Below, one piece after another: positions 310 through 8,756 of a stretch of DNA of 8,756 nucleotides (positions are counted from its first letter, which is position 1; each line of letters opens with the position of its first letter). The notes below the pieces were generated by a model. The model worked only from the letters and a program-made list of their open reading frames with translations. It searched no databases and was not told the DNA's origin. The stretch lies in the NCBI GenBank assembly GCA_017629415.1, contig JAGBXG010000190.1, forward strand, positions 1 through 8,756. The letters run 5' to 3'. The translations under genes and the position numbers were made by a program. The DNA is from Pseudomonadota bacterium. Lineage in GTDB: Bacteria; Myxococcota; Bradymonadia; UBA4248.

Positions 310-352
310 AAAAAAAAAGCTTTGCGTATTGCCGTCAGGCAATAGCAAAGCT
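310..352 (-). terminator. Intrinsic terminator of the lipoprotein gene
   Basis: Read on the minus strand, AGCTTTGC then TATTGCC pairs with GGCAATA then GCAAAGCT around a TGAC loop, with one bulged C between the two helical parts of the 3' arm. That is 15 pairs in all. Nine T follow directly (A at 310-318 on the plus strand, the last one inside the stem). This is a textbook Rho-independent terminator placed 62 bases after the stop codon at 415. It is the second of two tandem hairpins here and shares a bulged-C core with the hairpins at 357-391, 4537-4569 and 4571-4623. Confidence 0.88.
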
Positions 353-356
353 GTCA

Positions 357-391
357 GGCGTGCGTATCGGGCATATTGCCCGATAGCCGCC
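357..391 (-). repeat. Bulged-C hairpin A, 3' of the lipoprotein gene
   Basis: On the minus strand GGCG, GC and TATCGGGC pair with GCCCGATA, GC and CGCC. The loop is AATAT. A bulged C lies after ATA and a bulged A two pairs further out, for 14 pairs in total. It begins 23 bases past the lipoprotein stop codon and sits 4 bases before the terminator hairpin (318-352). It has no T-tract of its own. The core GC-TAT ... ATA-C-GC is the same as in three other hairpins of this window, while the inner stem bases differ and remain paired, which suggests selection on structure. Confidence 0.7.
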
Positions 392-414: not shown

Positions 415-3400
415 TTATTCGACGGCTAATGAGCCAAATCCGTATTCCATCCAATCGATGAAGCAGAACACGCGTTGTTCTTTTTCGTTGGGATCGCTGG
501 GATTGTGCTTGAGATCGAACGAATAAGCGAATGCATAATTGTAGCGATAGTCGGTGCTGTTGGTAATGACCGTTTTGGCAATGTATTCATCATTGCTGGT
601 GCCCGTGTAGGCTTCGTTCAAGACGGCAGGTACGACTGTCCATTTGGTGGAAGTGATGGGCTCTCTGGAATTGATGGCATTGATGTAGTGGAAGTGTGAA
701 GCAACGACTTTATTGCAGTTGCCGTTATCCGTGCATCCGGGAATCCAGATTTGGCCGTAGTAGGCATTTTCTTTGCCACTTTCGGCATACATGTTGGCGA
801 AGTTTCTATCGATACCGCAGCTGTAATCGACGCCGCGGACAAATGCTGCGCCGGGGACAGGATCGGTGCCGGGGTCTTCGACCTGAACGGCTTCGACTTT
901 CATCTTGGCGGCTTTATTGATGTCAAAGGTTTCGCTACCAGCAAAGTCACAGTACGTCCAGTTCTGACCGTTATCAACGCTGAAGCGATAGACGACGTTG
1001 TAGGTGGTATCGACCGTATCGCTGCCGATGGTGAAGGTTGCGCCGTATTCGTCATTATTGTCATCGACATGTGCTTCGTTGTATTGGGCTGCAGTCCAAG
1101 TGTATTGTGTCATATCATCCCCCGTGCCATAACCGGCTTCGGCGATGACGGCGGCGCACTTGCTATCGTTTTCGGAGCAGTCTTTGACGAAGACTTGACC
1201 AAAGATGATTTCGCTTGTTTCGCCTTGTTTGACGGTGGTGGTTTCGGGGTGTTGGACGCGGCACCAACCGACTTTTGTGGCTTCAGGTTCGGCAACTTTC
1301 ACGATGCTGGCGGTTGTTTTGTCGAAAAGTTGATTATCGGTAACGCTTGTTGCGGTGTTGGTGCAATAGGTTTTGGTTGCGCCGCCATCGGTGCTGAATG
1401 CGAAGATGACCTGATATTCGCCGGCAGTTTCGGGCTTGAGGGTAGCAACGAATTCGTCGTTGTTGCCGACATCTTTGAAGTAAGTGGCAGATGTGAAGGT
1501 GAAATCTTCGACATTTTGATCAGCTTTGCCGTAGCCGACATATGCCGTCAAGTTTGCACATGCTTCGGTGCCGGATGTTTGGGTGCAATCGGCAACATAA
1601 GCTTGAGCATAAACTTTCTGTTCGGCGCCAAGAGCCATATTTTCTGTGATAGTGGACATAATTTGGCAATAGTCGACGGAAGCGGCTTCTTCTTCGCTGG
1701 GTTCGATGACATTGAGGATACCGGCATCGGCGATATCGAAGGGTTTGCTGCCGTTCATGGAGCAGAATTTACGTTTGCCGTCGGCCATGCTGAAGGCATA
1801 AACCACTTTGTATTCGCCGGCGTTTTCGGGGGTGATGCTGGCAGCAAATTCGTCATTGTAGCCCACATCTTTGACATACGTCGCCGGAACAAACTTGTAA
1901 TTCTGATAATTGTCATCTGTGCCGTAGCCGATTTCAGCTTTCAGTTCTTCGCAAGCGGCATCTGCAGCTTTTGCAGAGCAATCGGCGACAAAGACTTGGC
2001 CATAAATTTTGTCAGATTCCAGGCCTTTGGCAATGGTTTGGGGTGAGTTCATAAAGAACTGGCACCATTCGATGGGATCTTTAACGATCATGGTGGCCAT
2101 GTTCTCGGCTTTGAAACCGGCCTGGTCATCGGCATCGCAGATTTCCCATGTTTTGCCGTTATCGACGCTGAAGCGATAGGCGACTTTGTAGGTGCCGATA
2201 GCTTCGGGGCTGACAGAGGCCATGTATTCATCGTTATTACCGGTGGTCACGGCATCATTATATTCGGCATCTGTCCAATTGAAGGTTTCGATATCTGTGC
2301 CGTAGCCGATTTGTGCTTTAACGGAGCCGCATTTTTTGTCGCCTTCGGAGCAGTTTTCTACCCAGATTTGGCCGTAAGCATCGAGTTTACCGCCTTTGTG
2401 GACTTGCGAGCCATCGAGGATGGTGCGGCACCAAAGGATGTTATCCTTATCGGTGACGGTCAGCTTGGAAGCATTTTCCATTTTGAAGCCGTCTTCATTG
2501 TCATAGTCGCAGTATGTCCAAGTTTCGCCGTCATCGACGCTGAAACGGAAAGCCATGGCATAATCGCCGGCTTCAGTCGGTTTGACGTTGCCGACATATT
2601 CATCGTTGTTGCCGGTTTCGAGGGCTGCATTGTTATAGGTGGCGGCGGTGTATGTGAAGTTTTCGACTTTATCGGTGGCTTTACCGTAACCGACTTCGCC
2701 TTTCAGTCCGCTGCAGACTTTTCCGGCGCCGGTGCAGTTATCGATGTAAACTTGAGCGTAGACAGGGATTTCGGTGTTGATTTTGGCGTTGACGGCTTCG
2801 GGTGCAACGATGCGGCACCATTCGACTGTTTTTTCAGGGGTAGGCGGATTTTCGGGGTCAACGTCTGTATCGGTCACTGTCAGCTGTACGGCATCGTTCA
2901 GTGAGAAATAAACATCATCGGAGGTATCGCAGTATGTCCATGTTTCGCCGTTATCGACGCTCATACGGTACACGACGGAATAGTTGCCGGCTTTATCGGC
3001 TGTGACTTGAGCCATGAATTCATCATGTTTGTCGCCGCCGCTGCCGTCATAAGATGTATTGAGTTCGGCATCTGTCCATTTGAAGTCGTCATCGATAGCA
3101 GATTTGAACGAAGGTCCGTATCCGACTTGAGCTTTGAGCGTATCGCAATGGGTTTGGTAATGGGTGCAATCTTTGACAAAGGCTTGTGCATAGATGTGTT
3201 CGGACGGTTTGCCGGTTTTGGCGGCAATTCTCGTTTCGCCGTTCATGATGCGGCACCAGCCGACGGTTGCGGGTTCGGGGGCAGGTTCTTCGGCAACGTT
3301 GACGGTGCCTGCGTAATCGCCGCTGAAGCCGTCTTGTGAACCGTTGGTATCGCAATACTGCCAGTTGTTTCCATCCATGCTGAAGCGATAAGCAACGCGG

Positions 3401-4332
3401 TATTTACCTGTGCCAAGGACGACGTTTTCAGGCATAAATTCGTCGTTATTCGCGGCTGCCACATCGTTAAAGCTTTCGTTACGCTTGGCATCTACCCATG
3501 TGTAAGCGGCTGTATCATTCACGTTGCCATCGGCTTTAATGTAGCCGATTTGGCCGCGAAGATCGGCATGTGTGCCGCTGGTTCCGGTCACACCTTCTTC
3601 AAAAACTTGTGCATAAGCCTTCAAGGATTCGCCGGGTTTAATATTCGGTTCAACATGGGTCACCTGACACCAGTCGATTTCAGCCGCATTTTCACTGGCT
3701 TTTAAGTAGGTAAATGTGCCGGCTGTCAGACGCTTATCATCTACAACAACACCTACCATGACCATGCCGTTGAGTTCGGGTGCGGTGGCCACGACTTCGG
3801 TAGCTGTTGCCGAATCGACATTGACGATTTCAGATGCAAAAAAGACTTTGGCAATTTTGCTCAGATTTTCGCCTTTAATGGTGACTTTGGTGCCGGCCTT
3901 GCCGCTGACCGGCGAAATGCCTGTGACTTTGGGGGCAATCACATCGGTATTGGTGTTGTCATTCTTTTTACAGGAGTTGTAGGCACAGCCGTATTGGCAA
4001 TCAATTTTCATTTCCTGAGTGCCCACGCAGGTCAGTTGCTGTTTGCCGTCATCACTGCATTTCGAGCCGACATAATCACAAGTATTGCCTGTCGATTCCT
4101 GGATGCATTCTCCGTTCGCACAGCCGGCACCGCAGTATTTTTGAACGATGTTACCGTTTTGACATGTTTCCACATAACTGCCGTTGCACTGGCTGCCTGT
4201 GAACTCACAAGCTGCCCCATTTCCATTATTGTTGCCTCCATTCTGGTCGGGCGGTGTCTGGGTACCGCTGGCACAACCTGCCAAAACGAGACATGATGCC
4301 ATCAACGCAAAAACTGTTTTCCAGCTCTTCAT
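415..4332 (-). CDS. Large secreted lipoprotein: two six-Cys modules, IPT/TIG domain, eight tandem repeats
   Basis: A 1305-residue exported lipoprotein, probably anchored in the outer membrane facing out; no enzymatic function is visible. The start at 4332 is chosen over an upstream ATG at 4374 because AGGAG (4339-4343) lies six bases ahead of it and it gives a clean signal peptide: MKSWK, a hydrophobic run, and lipobox L-A-G-C with Cys20. Ala at +2 fits outer-membrane sorting. An Asn/Gly-rich tether (about 23-41) follows. Two six-cysteine modules (42-76 and 85-121) have near-identical Cys spacing. An IPT/TIG Ig-like domain spans about 133-210. Eight tandem repeats follow (219-1305), each with WC near the start, YxQV, GYG, NDE(F/Y) and YRFSVDxGxTWTYCD. 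From memory these resemble beta-sandwich repeats in extracellular nucleases and lamin-tail proteins. The gene is monocistronic, ended by the hairpins at 310-391 and divergent from the HD-GYP gene. A role in adhesion or surface layering is inference. Confidence 0.93.
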   Translation of the reverse strand: MKSWKTVFALMASCLVLAGCASGTQTPPDQNGGNNNGNGAACEFTGSQCNGSYVETCQNGNIVQKYCGAGCANGECIQESTGNTCDYVGSKCSDDGKQQLTCVGTQEMKIDCQYGCAYNSCKKNDNTNTDVIAPKVTGISPVSGKAGTKVTIKGENLSKIAKVFFASEIVNVDSATATEVVATAPELNGMVMVGVVVDDKRLTAGTFTYLKASENAAEIDWCQVTHVEPNIKPGESLKAYAQVFEEGVTGTSGTHADLRGQIGYIKADGNVNDTAAYTWVDAKRNESFNDVAAANNDEFMPENVVLGTGKYRVAYRFSMDGNNWQYCDTNGSQDGFSGDYAGTVNVAEEPAPEPATVGWCRIMNGETRIAAKTGKPSEHIYAQAFVKDCTHYQTHCDTLKAQVGYGPSFKSAIDDDFKWTDAELNTSYDGSGGDKHDEFMAQVTADKAGNYSVVYRMSVDNGETWTYCDTSDDVYFSLNDAVQLTVTDTDVDPENPPTPEKTVEWCRIVAPEAVNAKINTEIPVYAQVYIDNCTGAGKVCSGLKGEVGYGKATDKVENFTYTAATYNNAALETGNNDEYVGNVKPTEAGDYAMAFRFSVDDGETWTYCDYDNEDGFKMENASKLTVTDKDNILWCRTILDGSQVHKGGKLDAYGQIWVENCSEGDKKCGSVKAQIGYGTDIETFNWTDAEYNDAVTTGNNDEYMASVSPEAIGTYKVAYRFSVDNGKTWEICDADDQAGFKAENMATMIVKDPIEWCQFFMNSPQTIAKGLESDKIYGQVFVADCSAKAADAACEELKAEIGYGTDDNYQNYKFVPATYVKDVGYNDEFAASITPENAGEYKVVYAFSMADGKRKFCSMNGSKPFDIADAGILNVIEPSEEEAASVDYCQIMSTITENMALGAEQKVYAQAYVADCTQTSGTEACANLTAYVGYGKADQNVEDFTFTSATYFKDVGNNDEFVATLKPETAGEYQVIFAFSTDGGATKTYCTNTATSVTDNQLFDKTTASIVKVAEPEATKVGWCRVQHPETTTVKQGETSEIIFGQVFVKDCSENDSKCAAVIAEAGYGTGDDMTQYTWTAAQYNEAHVDDNNDEYGATFTIGSDTVDTTYNVVYRFSVDNGQNWTYCDFAGSETFDINKAAKMKVEAVQVEDPGTDPVPGAAFVRGVDYSCGIDRNFANMYAESGKENAYYGQIWIPGCTDNGNCNKVVASHFHYINAINSREPITSTKWTVVPAVLNEAYTGTSNDEYIAKTVITNSTDYRYNYAFAYSFDLKHNPSDPNEKEQRVFCFIDWMEYGFGSLAVE
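418..3678 (-). repeat. Eight tandem protein-coding repeats of the lipoprotein
   Basis: Approximate repeat units in gene order, as plus-strand positions: R1 3286-3678, R2 2863-3264, R3 2449-2826, R4 2077-2439, R5 1699-2073, R6 1291-1677, R7 892-1272, R8 418-834. Short acidic or Pro-rich linkers separate several units (after R1, R2, R5 and R7). R2-R8 each have four cysteines: WC (or YC/SC), a close pair 5-8 residues apart, and the Cys of YC/IC/FC near the end. R1 lacks only the close pair. R5 and R6 form a sub-group (KDVGxNDEF, wider inner Cys spacing, loss of the Trp before YC). R8 is the most diverged. Some DNA stretches are near-identical, for example at about 2508-2543 and 2928-2963, 420 bases apart. 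Confidence 0.9.
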
Positions 4333-4338
4333 GGGAAA

Positions 4339-4343
4339 CTCCT
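4339..4343 (-). promoter_or_regulatory. Ribosome binding site of the lipoprotein gene
   Basis: AGGAG on the minus strand, six bases (TTTCCC) before the ATG at 4332. It decides the start in favour of this ATG over the in-frame ATG at 4374, which would put 14 extra residues before the signal peptide. Confidence 0.85.
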
Positions 4344-4478
4344 GTTGTAAAATACAAAAAAAGCCGTTCTTCATGCATAAAATTCCATATTTTCTTTAAC
4401 CGCATGAATCACGGCAAAACCTGCAGCATATATAGCGAAATTATCCATAAACTGCCATAGTTCATTTGTAATCTTATG

Positions 4479-4487
4479 TGGTAAAAT
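4479..4487 (+). promoter_or_regulatory. Extended -10 promoter candidate for a small RNA or leader
   Basis: TG-G-TAAAAT, an extended -10 element (TG at 4479-4480, hexamer 4482-4487). No good -35 lies 16-18 bases upstream, which is tolerated for extended -10 promoters. Initiation would fall near 4494. The same TGTGGTA context recurs at the -10 of the downstream promoter (4653-4663). No plus-strand gene starts before 4741, so the immediate product would be a transcript running into the two hairpins and T-tract ending at 4636. Confidence 0.4.
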
Positions 4488-4536
4488 GTAGGTTTTAAGG
4501 GGACTGTTTTATGCAGTATGTGTTTGGGAATTTTTT

Positions 4537-4569
4537 GCTGTGCTATGGCGGAAACGCCATACGCACAGC
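4537..4569 (+). repeat. Bulged-C hairpin 1 with GAAA tetraloop
   Basis: GCTGTGC and TATGGCG pair with CGCCATA and GCACAGC, closed by a GAAA (GNRA) loop at 4551-4554 and with a single bulged C at 4562. The core GC-TAT ... ATA-C-GC matches the two minus-strand hairpins at 318-352 and 357-391. No T-tract follows directly; the next hairpin starts one base later. Confidence 0.75.
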
Positions 4570-4570
4570 C

Positions 4571-4636
4571 CGGCGATACTATTGGCGCCATGCACTTCGT
4601 GCGGCTGCCAATACGTATCGCCGAAAGGTTTTTTTT
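4571..4636 (+). terminator. Long bulged-C hairpin 2 followed by T8
   Basis: CGGCGATAC (4571-4579) pairs with GTATCGCCG (4615-4623). TATTGGC (4580-4586) pairs with GCCAATA (4607-4613), with C4614 bulged between the two helices. Inside, GCC and GCAC pair with GTGC and GGC around a TTC loop, with small bulges. Eight T follow at 4629-4636 after the spacer AAAGG, slightly longer than the ideal spacing. It looks like an intrinsic terminator for a transcript starting in the intergenic region, since no plus-strand gene precedes it here. Its T-tract runs into the -35 of the next promoter. Confidence 0.6.
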
Positions 4637-4663
4637 GGGAATAAAAGCGTAGTGTGGTATGAT
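4635..4663 (+). promoter_or_regulatory. Sigma70-type promoter of the HD-GYP operon
   Basis: -35 TTGGGA (4635-4640), a 17-base spacer, and -10 TATGAT (4658-4663) with an upstream TG (4655-4656) making an extended -10. This is the best promoter in the window. It would start transcription near 4670, giving a 5' leader of about 70 bases before the ATG at 4741. The first two bases of the -35 are the last two T of the upstream terminator-like T-tract. Confidence 0.65.
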
Positions 4664-4726
4664 TACCTACATAGGGTATAAAGTAAGCCCTTTGCTCGAC
4701 AGAATGGTGTGCTTTCATCATTATTT

Positions 4727-4731
4727 AGGAA
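4727..4731 (+). promoter_or_regulatory. Ribosome binding site of the HD-GYP gene
   Basis: AGGAA, nine bases before the ATG at 4741. It supports that ATG as the start. Confidence 0.65.
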
Positions 4732-4740
4732 TTTGGAAAT

Positions 4741-6537
4741 ATGCTTCAGCTTCAGGTCATATACGGCAAAGATGCAGGGAAATGCGTGCGTTTCCAGCAA
4801 AGTGTCGTGCATATTGGCTCTGATCCCGGCAATGATTTTCAGCTTAATGATGATGAAATCAGTGAATATCATGGCCGTTTTACGTGTCACCAGTCGGCCG
4901 GTCATTATGCATATTGTGATTTACAAAGTACGCGCGGATCGCGTGTGCGTTCTGCCAGCATCGATGTTTTGCTCTACAGTCATCAGATGCCGCAATCTGT
5001 GGCCATCGCTGGTGAGTGTGTCATTTCTTTAGGCCAGACGCTCATACAGTGTACCTATACAGCCAGAAATCCGGATAGTCCCAATCGTGTCCGCCGTGTA
5101 TCTGCCCTGTCGATGCATGCCATACCGCCATCGAATGATCCCGACATGCTGTCATTTCTTCTCGATGCTTCTTTGGCTTTGACAGCCAAAACGACCCATC
5201 AGGCAGTCATGTCACATTTGTCGATGTCTATTTTGCAGCGATTGCCGAATGCCTCACACGTTTCGATATGGCGTTTTGATTCAAGCCGTGATTGTTTTTC
5301 ATGCATTTATGAACGATCGCGCGGCAATTTGACGACCCCGTCTCTTCTGACAGATGCTGATTACCGTCAAGCCCTTAAATCACACAGTGTTGAGCTCTTT
5401 GTGTCTGAAGAGCAGCCGCATGTTGGATGTGCGCTTGTCGAACCGCTGGTGACAGCACGCCATGAACTCGGGGTGCTCGTTGTGGATTCTTTGCGGCCTG
5501 ATGGCATTCAGCCGGCCGACATCGAAGGATTGGCACGCCTGGGATCTGTGGCAGCTTATGCCATCGAACGCACCTTTATTAATGCCGATATCAGTGCGGT
5601 CTTTGACAGCTTTATCCGTTCAATCATCGCTGTGATGGATGCCCGTGATCCGGCTTCGGCAGGACATTCCAAGCGTGTGGCGAATTATGCGCTTTTTACA
5701 GCTCAAGCCATTCATGCCTCACAGGCACCGGCTTTCAGAAATATCCTGTTTTCGCATAATCACATGGATGAGCTTCGGTGTGCGGCGCTTCTCCATGATA
5801 TTGGCAAGGTCGTTCTCAGACGCGAAATTCTTCTCAAGTCTGCAAAGCTCACTCCTGGTGATCTCCAGCATTTGCTCGAACGTATCGAACTTTTTGCCGC
5901 CTGGTTTGCAACGCAAAATGCCGAAAAACTTGGCGCAGATTATCGCTCGCCTCAGCAGTTTGCGCATTATCGGGAAATCGTCACGCGAGTGCAGCAAGCA
6001 CAAGCTCGCGCGACAGCCGAGGATAAGTTTTATATTGATGAAATGGCTCGCACGTTCATCATTCCATGTCCTGGCCTGCCGCTGCTCAAGGCTGCTGAAC
6101 GCGATTCCTTGCTCATTGAACGCGGTACACTCAATGCTGACGAACGCCGCGAAATCCAAAAACATGCCCTGATTTCATGGCAGTATCTCTCTCAAATTGC
6201 ATGGCCACAACGTTGGGCCAATGTGCCGGTCTACGTCCTTCAGCATCATGAAAAATTAAATGGTACAGGATATCCCTACGGTATTCGAGGCGATCAAATC
6301 TTTCTTCAAAGCCGAATCATTACCATTTGTGATATTTTTGATGCCCTCACGGGAGGCGACAGATCGTATAAAACACGCCATTCTTTCGGAGATGCGGCGC
6401 AAATTCTGCTGCAAGATGCCAAAGCCGGGGCTCTTGACAAAGATATCGTCGATCTGTTTATTGAACAGGTCATTCCGCAAATTGTCGATGCTGAAGCCGT
6501 CTCAAGTGGATCGTCTCCTGCCGTTGTCAGCGGTTAA
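4741..6537 (+). CDS. FHA-GAF-HD-GYP signalling protein, probable cyclic-di-GMP phosphodiesterase
   Basis: A 598-residue cytoplasmic protein with no membrane segment. Residues about 1-105 form an FHA-like domain (IGSDPGNDFQL, then S41 and H44). About 135-280 is a GAF-like sensor domain, and about 285-585 is an HD-GYP domain that in this family hydrolyses cyclic-di-GMP. Visible catalytic-type residues are H309 (AGHSKRV), H352-D353 with GK (LLHDIGK), H475, H502-H503-E504 (HHEKLNGTGYP, the GYP signature with Asn in place of the usual Asp) and D531 (ICDIFDALTGGDRSYK). About 90 extra residues separate HDIGK from GTLNADERREIQKH, as in a long-insert HD-GYP subclass I recall from proteobacteria. The FHA part lacks the usual phosphate-binding Arg (Ser27) and the late Asn (Arg65 in STRG). 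It is first gene of a likely three-gene operon, with its own promoter at 4635-4663. The ligand of the GAF domain is unknown. Confidence 0.9.
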   Translation: MLQLQVIYGKDAGKCVRFQQSVVHIGSDPGNDFQLNDDEISEYHGRFTCHQSAGHYAYCDLQSTRGSRVRSASIDVLLYSHQMPQSVAIAGECVISLGQTLIQCTYTARNPDSPNRVRRVSALSMHAIPPSNDPDMLSFLLDASLALTAKTTHQAVMSHLSMSILQRLPNASHVSIWRFDSSRDCFSCIYERSRGNLTTPSLLTDADYRQALKSHSVELFVSEEQPHVGCALVEPLVTARHELGVLVVDSLRPDGIQPADIEGLARLGSVAAYAIERTFINADISAVFDSFIRSIIAVMDARDPASAGHSKRVANYALFTAQAIHASQAPAFRNILFSHNHMDELRCAALLHDIGKVVLRREILLKSAKLTPGDLQHLLERIELFAAWFATQNAEKLGADYRSPQQFAHYREIVTRVQQAQARATAEDKFYIDEMARTFIIPCPGLPLLKAAERDSLLIERGTLNADERREIQKHALISWQYLSQIAWPQRWANVPVYVLQHHEKLNGTGYPYGIRGDQIFLQSRIITICDIFDALTGGDRSYKTRHSFGDAAQILLQDAKAGALDKDIVDLFIEQVIPQIVDAEAVSSGSSPAVVSG

Positions 6538-8681: not shown

Positions 8682-8756
8682 AATCGAACGATTTGGCTTT
8701 ATGGTCAACATGAGGCGGCACGGGGCGTTGCGGGGTGTCCCCGCAAAGGGGGTAGG
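8682..8756 (+). other. 3' flank of the operon with a GC-rich hairpin at 8728-8746
   Basis: TTGCGGGG (8728-8735) pairs perfectly with CCCCGCAA (8739-8746) around a TGT loop. It is followed by AGGGGGTAGG up to the edge. No T-tract is visible, so it is not a classic terminator within the window. A frame opened by ATG 8701 stays open to the edge but has no ribosome binding site. The block may be an intergenic repeat, a structured RNA start, or a terminator whose T-tract lies outside. Confidence 0.5.

Follow-up and report, generated by a model that had tools for sequence, protein, structure and literature searches.

The subject of this study is a pair of tandem hairpins in a stretch of 8,756 nucleotides, below called the window, together with related hairpins from other genomes. 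The pair lies between the gene of a 1319-aa protein (415-4374, minus strand), in which a TIG domain precedes six or more repeats of about 124-140 aa, and an HD-GYP gene, the product of which matches HD and FHA domains above the cut-off and a GAF domain below it. The window also carries a dNK gene whose nearest named relatives are found in Proteobacteria MAGs and then in one Bradymonadales and one Myxococcota MAG. An earlier note on this DNA had described two hairpins with the core C-TAT...ATA-[bulged C]-G and with arms which differ and are still paired, and folding of 4537-4646 confirmed this. Hairpin 1 has 7 outer pairs, the bulged C, 7 inner pairs and a GAAA loop, and hairpin 2, one base further on, has 23 pairs in all, 9 in the outer stem, 7 inside the bulged C and the rest in an additional apical part. 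The minimum free energy of the region is -60.1 kcal/mol (z = -9.27) and none of 200 shuffles folded equally well. The T8 tract reported 3' of hairpin 2 is present, and a T6 run on the other side of the pair can be added to it. Because of the T8 run this copy is a possible candidate for an intrinsic terminator on the plus strand; a consensus scan of 4300-4800, which requires a T-rich window starting 0-2 bases after the stem, reported no terminator-like site. The positions of all these features are collected in Table 1.

Table 1. Hairpins and neighbouring features of the window
Feature	Position	Strand	Description	Basis
T-run	310-317	-	follows the fourth hairpin and lies 3' of the 1319-aa gene	sequence
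Fourth hairpin (second of the second pair)	318-352	-	AGCTTTGC-TATTGCC-TGAC-GGCAATA-[C]-GCAAAGCT; G-strand loop c(GTCA)g	
Third hairpin (first of the second tandem pair)	357-391	-	GGCGGC-TATCGGGC...GCCCGATA-[C]-GCACGCC; one more bulge in the outer stem	
T6 run	4531-4536	+	next to hairpin 1; T6 refers to the C-bulge strand, with A6 on the G strand	sequence
Hairpin 1	4537-4569	+	GCTGTGC-TATGGCG-GAAA-CGCCATA-[C]-GCACAGC; strand given is the C-bulge strand	sequence + fold
Hairpin 2	4571-4623	+	CGGCGATAC-TATTGGC...GCCAATA-[C]-GTATCGCCG; longer apical part; head-to-tail with hairpin 1	
T8 run	4629-4636	+	five bases past the stem of hairpin 2	sequence
Promoter-like block of the HD-GYP gene	4653-4671	+	TGTGGTA-N4-TACCTACA; downstream of the hairpins, outside the element	
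Partial composite C-tagged copy (probable)	8716-8756	-	CCCCCTTTGCGGGG...CCCCGCAACGCCCC	by-eye comparison + fold

A second pair on the minus strand (318-391) sits after the 1319-aa gene and before a T-run, and its fold has a z of -7.95. All four hairpins of the window share C-TAT...ATA-[C]-G, while the remainder differs. At the far end, the window stops before the expected start of the bulged hairpin which belongs to the block at 8716-8756; a similar block adjoins a core hairpin in L003 and a variant hairpin without TAT in L052 (by eye). This composite, with C5/G5 tracts around a bulged hairpin (window 8716-8756; L003:1-130; L052 upstream of HD-GYP), occurs in several species, and its arms recur more than those of the tandem pairs. 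It may be a more recently mobile form.

Do the hairpins belong to the HD-GYP gene? The earlier note had placed them upstream of the HD-GYP operon; membership of the operon was not borne out. A promoter-like block, TGTGGTA-N4-T(A/G)CCTACA, precedes the HD-GYP orthologue in six of eight relatives (read by eye), and in the window it is placed between the hairpins and the HD-GYP start codon. Since this conserved block separates them from the gene, the hairpins are not its leader; they precede the gene's own promoter-like block and their location appears incidental. An HD-GYP leader or attenuator, like a plain terminator, was rejected on the position of the block 3' of the hairpins and on the orientation to the genes. 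A sigma-70-like site at 4635-4663 overlaps the block, two such sites having been found against 1.3 expected. A sequence related to the block, TGTGGTAAAATGTAGG, is present at 4477-4492, and the two blocks perhaps represent a shared type of promoter or operator. Within 330 nt upstream of HD-GYP, hairpin pairs stand in G001, G006 and G008 on the strand opposite to that of the window, those of G006 with imperfect outer stems (by eye). One hairpin lies about 325 nt away in G003 and a variant without TAT occurs in G004, and in G002, G005 and G007 no hairpins were visible in the same 330 nt (all by eye). In L002:1-240, tandem repeats of about 50 nt (TGGGCACACGCTTCGCCCGATACACGACGCACGCCGTGTTCACAATGCCT) take up the space before HD-GYP that holds hairpins in some other species.

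How general is the shared bulge? We scanned 349 kb of a relative for single-base 3'-bulged hairpins with at least 6 Watson-Crick pairs in the inner stem and at least 4 in the outer one. Forty-eight of the 59 hairpins found have C-TAT and the bulged C, so that the sharing goes well past what chance would give. Across 2.11 Mb of seven related MAGs, the base bulged in folded hairpins was C in 591 cases, T in 25, G in 3 and A in none, with no bulge in 162, and each of eleven other cores gave 6-52 folded hairpins. The arms were assessed by core-based counts without alignment. At 458 sites picked on the core and one outer pair only (duplicates kept), the remaining arm pairs are Watson-Crick in 66-94%, compared with 20-42% when the partner is slid by one. 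Pairing was 4-42% with another bulge base (n = 24), 17-34% with a scrambled core (n = 47) and 18-50% with an unbulged core (n = 34), the last in part exceeding the 15-35% of its own slid control. Several pair types occur at each of the tested arm positions, so the arms covary. Distinct inner hairpins number 88 of 97 in G001 and 100 of 103 in G007; in a C-tagged sub-family some arms recur. The hairpins form a family with an invariant core and with arms that stay paired yet vary. The proposal that they are chance structures or plain terminators with a coincidental bulge can point to the T-tract alone and is refuted by the bulge scan, by the number of bulged-C hairpins and by the arm pairing, and we give it practically no weight. 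A search for what would speak against the earlier note, that is a lack of further copies or loss of the bulge in relatives, had the opposite outcome, hundreds of bulged copies.

The family was reached through HD-GYP orthologues, which led to three MAGs titled Proteobacteria, two of them from deer omasum and buffalo rectum and the third presumably from termite gut, and from there to a bacterial family of eight genomes. The pattern GCTATN{8,38}ATACGC has 309-943 matches per genome in all eight, against 25-197 for the reversed pattern; G001 has 943 against 197 and G007 927 against 46. None of 49 other genomes of the class comes near these counts, most being at or below the control and a few slightly above, with the largest excess in G048 (26 against 9 in 11.4 Mb); the order contains one more genome, G009, in which 7 matches stand against 15. 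One version of the arms, allowing up to 2 mismatches, is present in 12-108 copies in each of the eight genomes, and elsewhere in the phylum it gives a single match each in 5 of 274 genomes. In viral contigs, one arm version gave no match and the unbulged control gave one. A relaxed pattern, CTAT...ATACGNNNNNNNC, was dropped as too unspecific. Among the genomes searched the hairpin family is restricted to one family of uncultured bacteria (Bradymonadales/Myxococcota relatives). The earlier note knew no named RNA family with this layout, and Rfam agrees with it: there were two sub-threshold matches in the window, neither at the hairpins, and none in 120 kb of relatives. We found no description of the hairpin family in the covered part of the literature search results, to which subscription papers are largely external.

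Strict detection gave 546 hairpins in 393 elements, 141 of them with at least two hairpins, and some of the single ones have an imperfect neighbour hairpin (by eye). The lists behind these layout counts, and behind the tag counts and the counts of GNA triloops below, come from the C strand folded as RNA. Neighbours within 60 nt have the same orientation in 167 of 174 cases and the opposite one in 7, and the most frequent spacing is 5 nt. According to gene calls from a simple codon-usage script, 17 of 323 elements (contig edges left out) lie inside genes, though 78% of the DNA was called coding. In the 141 tandem pairs the outer stem measures 4.63 bp in the hairpin which is first on the C strand and 6.50 bp in the second (p = 1e-12); the two members of a pair therefore differ. 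The layout is extragenic and head-to-tail, with unequal outer stems. Within about 257 nt after the dNK gene, G001 and G002 both have a tandem pair with an identical spacer and compensated stem changes, and no tandem pair was visible there in the other seven relatives (by eye). Judging by eye from two gene ends, units seem to come and go between species and stems seem to change at shared sites.

Could these elements be lineage-specific tandem intrinsic terminators, in which the C strand is the 3' end of an mRNA, with a termination factor or an RNA-end-binding factor reading the bulge? On the C strand, a T5 run follows within 20 nt in 62 of 393 elements, compared with 5.0% of intergenic 20-nt windows, and A5 runs are depleted, with 5 of 393 on the 5' side and 2 of 393 on the 3' side against a background of 5.2%. 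Elements with a 3' T5 run are sense to antisense in a ratio of 23:8, which suggests that the C strand of some copies is read as RNA. Convergent gaps are the densest in elements, with 1.36 per kb compared with 0.99 in co-directional and 0.49 in divergent gaps, and in G007 tandem elements with a 3' T-run are sense or convergent in 14 of 14 placeable cases. Hairpin clusters have been described as terminators in the accessible part of PMC8355165, and these resemble our elements in having two adjacent hairpins, sometimes a T-tract, and a place near stop codons. They differ, on the same partial account (PMC8355165), from a family that has an invariant bulge core, mostly no T-tract, and both orientations. 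Indeed, the 3' T-tract of intrinsic terminators is missing from 331 of the 393 elements, although the window pairs do have T-runs. In co-directional gaps 108 elements are sense and 92 antisense. T5+ runs are enriched on the 5' side too (49 of 393, or 12.5%, against 5.0%), and elements with a 5' run and no 3' run show no strand bias (13:11). Moreover, one of three placeable tandem elements with a T-run in G001 is antisense, and the window copy itself is missed by the terminator scan. Taking these points together with the strand evidence below, we consider it unlikely that the family is one of terminators, though copies with a 3' T-tract may act additionally in this way.

Which strand is it, then, that folds? 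We collected hairpins with exactly one internal mismatch, picked without folding and with duplicates removed (n = 90). Of the mismatches, 27 are G.T on the G strand against 3 on the C strand, and the purine-purine ones divide in the same way into 57 and 3; an earlier, looser count which included duplicates and stem ends was weak, 43 against 27. A recurrent imperfect class has TC/TC beside the core on the C strand, equivalent to a tandem 5'-GA-3' pair on the G strand. Such pairs beside the core number 62 (57 distinct) on the G strand and 1 on the C strand, and the reverse order is found on neither (0 and 0). A strand-biased mutation process could imitate part of this bias but hardly the tandem G-A pairs, and the sequences show a strong bias for folding of the strand with the bulged G. 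The absence of G.U tolerance on the C strand, the same 3 against 27, also argues against the terminator reading, and a C-strand RNA as the main form, first favoured for the T-tracts, was dropped after the tests on mismatches and loops. Energy models prefer the G strand whether RNA or DNA parameters are used (156:65 and 181:52 of 499), therefore energy cannot separate the two, and the choice of strand by energy model was set aside.

The bias would also fit a structured RNA from the G strand, such as an ncRNA or a UTR element; it would have the bulged G on its 5' side, linkers rich in A and G, G-A pairs and GNA or GNRA loops. Both RNA and DNA put up with G-A and G.T pairs. The mismatches and tandem G-A pairs suit RNA as well; the G-strand linkers are T-poor (6%), and the RNA energies favour this strand. 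The loops distinguish better. RNA favours GNRA and UNCG loops, and among ordinary T-run hairpins of the same genomes the loop cUUCGg is the most frequent one (5 of 36 tetraloops). In the core hairpins, C-G-closed tetraloops on the G strand (n = 77) are GNRA in 16 cases, GNYA in 14, GNAB in 16 and UNCG in none, and C-G-closed triloops (n = 203) are G..A in 83, swapped A..G in 5 and A..A in 28. The loop c(GNA)g accounts for 74 of 197 triloops on the G strand and 7 on the C strand, compared with 27 and 23 of 283 in other intergenic hairpins. Hairpins which come last before a T5 run still have DNA-type loops on the G strand (c(GNA)g in 8 against 0 of 23 triloops), a further point against terminators. 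Triloops outnumber tetraloops, 203:95, compared with 135:194 (8-bp stems) or 283:319 (7-bp stems) in other intergenic hairpins, the size of the excess varying with the control chosen. There are exceptions: G003 has no GNA bias (0 of 6 triloops), and hairpin 1 of the window, contrary to the family trend, has its GAAA loop on the C strand. Both GNA/GNNA and GNNA/GNAB are reported as stable DNA loops in the accessible parts of PMC4686876 and PMC8373063. With GNYA about equal to GNRA, GNAB common, UNCG absent and triloops in excess, the loops follow the stability rules of DNA rather than of RNA; in addition, the G strand is antisense to adjacent genes about as often as sense, and Rfam has no match. 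A G-strand RNA is in our opinion distinctly unlikely, and because of the DNA-type loops and the near-neutral orientation to genes, the folded strand is most likely DNA. What the earlier note had said of a recognised fold, and not mere termination, holds as far as the invariant bulge within compensated helices is concerned, but not for the plus-strand RNA which it took as the relevant molecule: loops, wobbles and mismatches indicate the complementary strand.

Among known systems, the ends of IS200/IS605 elements and PATE consist of two imperfect hairpins that share strand and orientation and have an unpaired stem base, and are read as single-stranded DNA. Our hairpins are alike in their paired, same-orientation arrangement and unpaired stem base, but they have no cargo between them (about 5 nt), their arms differ per copy, and tnpA is not consistently adjacent. 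In integron attC sites the folded strand is chosen by extra-helical bases and a conserved core is likewise combined with a variable stem; the core of our family appears to differ from the attC boxes. Similar in their distribution are the GTAG/CGTC REPs and BIMEs with their RAYT (the REPtron), which, in the accessible parts of PMC3733652 and PMC8266576, are also short extragenic high-copy palindromes, often paired, and densest downstream of and between convergent genes. From the same source in part (PMC8266576), E. coli REPs are read on one strand and likewise require a stem bulge for TnpA-REP activity. Might the hairpins then be a GTAG-REP family proper, mobilised by a RAYT (TnpA-REP)? Most GTAG REP families have the terminal GTAG at one foot in >90% of members (PMC3733652, accessible part). 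In our set GTAG on the G strand near the stem foot is found in 51 of 546 hairpins, all of them among the 101 with CCCCC close by and none among the 445 others, a split that is partly by construction since membership of the C-tagged sub-family required CCCCC at most about 25 nt away, a criterion that overlaps with the usual CTACCCCC context. The foot of CGTC REPs is likewise rare: 12 of 546 hairpins carry GACG close to the foot of the C strand. The family agrees with GTAG REPs in being extragenic and of high copy number, and departs from them in tag, dimer orientation and shared stem sequence: as far as the consulted parts of the two REP papers describe them, REPs form inverted dimers and conserve their stems within a family, whereas our hairpins are mostly without the tag, run head-to-tail, and have stems rewritten per copy around an invariant bulge. 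The members of our pairs are also unequal in outer stem.

Y1 transposase genes (Y1_Tnp) were detected in six of the eight family genomes, some IS200-type and some RAYT-like, and none in G002 and G007, which are element-rich MAGs of unstated completeness. The IS200-type call was made through NCBIfam for three of eight proteins and by eye for the rest. REP_Tyr_transpos scored above the cut-off in one of eight proteins scanned (G001) and below it in proteins of G003 and G004, one of them by 0.3 bits; the scan left out one fused candidate (L084, G005). These scores, together with the GTAG of the CCCCC sub-family and the bulge requirement of E. coli REPs, are what speaks for a REP family proper. 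No RAYT-type gene was seen in G002, G006, G007 and G008, half of the eight carriers (the type in G008 judged by eye), and with the tag so confined and the arms unconserved we regard this explanation as improbable. Core hairpins lie within about 260 nt at 4 of 8 IS200-type loci. All 7 hairpin groups downstream of Y1 genes have the C strand opposite to the gene (one is 1.1 kb away), a pattern noticed post hoc; one further group upstream of a Y1 gene has the other sense and other Y1 loci have no hairpins, and an association with Y1 genes was set aside on these grounds. GC skew shows no replication-strand bias (183:160), which counts against the reading preferred below, as single-strand transposition might leave one. 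In L031:166-1818, L084:58-2343 and L083:265-3291, Y1/RAYT-like domains stand in long frames which resemble restriction or DNA-methyltransferase proteins (by eye), and the short repeated peptide G-x-x-x-V-S-P-A in L031 and L084 would fit the in-frame entry of a repeat array into the gene.

Our preferred reading, which we hold to be probable though far from certain, is that the two hairpins form a head-to-tail unit belonging to a dispersed family of REP-like single-stranded DNA hairpins with a putative protein reader and hundreds of copies per genome. We say REP-like, and call the reader putative, because Y1 genes went undetected in G002 and G007 and because the tag, dimer and stem tests of REPs failed. 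The functional form would be a single DNA strand, opposite to the strand given here, folded in the order outer stem, unpaired G, TAT, free inner stem, ATA, outer stem. Many of the inner stems end in a loop that is stable in DNA, c(GNA)g for instance. A structure-reading protein would see the bulge and the neighbouring C-G, T-A, A-T and T-A pairs and ignore the sequence and length of the arms, and for this reason the arms could drift freely as long as pairing was kept. The hairpins are frequently paired about 5 nt apart, with members unequal in outer-stem length. We can only speculate that a Y1 HUH protein of the IS200/TnpA-REP kind acts as the reader. A bolder idea, which we put forward only tentatively, is that these are a new class of chromosomal element, tandem single-stranded DNA hairpins served by a dedicated protein, whose only heritable signature is the one-base bulge core and whose arms are continually renewed. 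Continual renewal would have copies at the same gene end in related species keep the core and swap stems, as appears by eye in G001 and G002 after dNK.

Repeats are usually detected through matching sequence. A family defined by its fold, by few invariant bases and by compensated arms is missed by similarity searches and by Rfam, even at hundreds of copies per genome. The strand-wise rules for loops and mismatches used here offer a test, from sequence only, of whether a bacterial hairpin acts as DNA or as RNA. The family also bears on the question of how copies multiply or persist without common stems, and it would give a natural mutational record of the features which a structure-reading protein requires.
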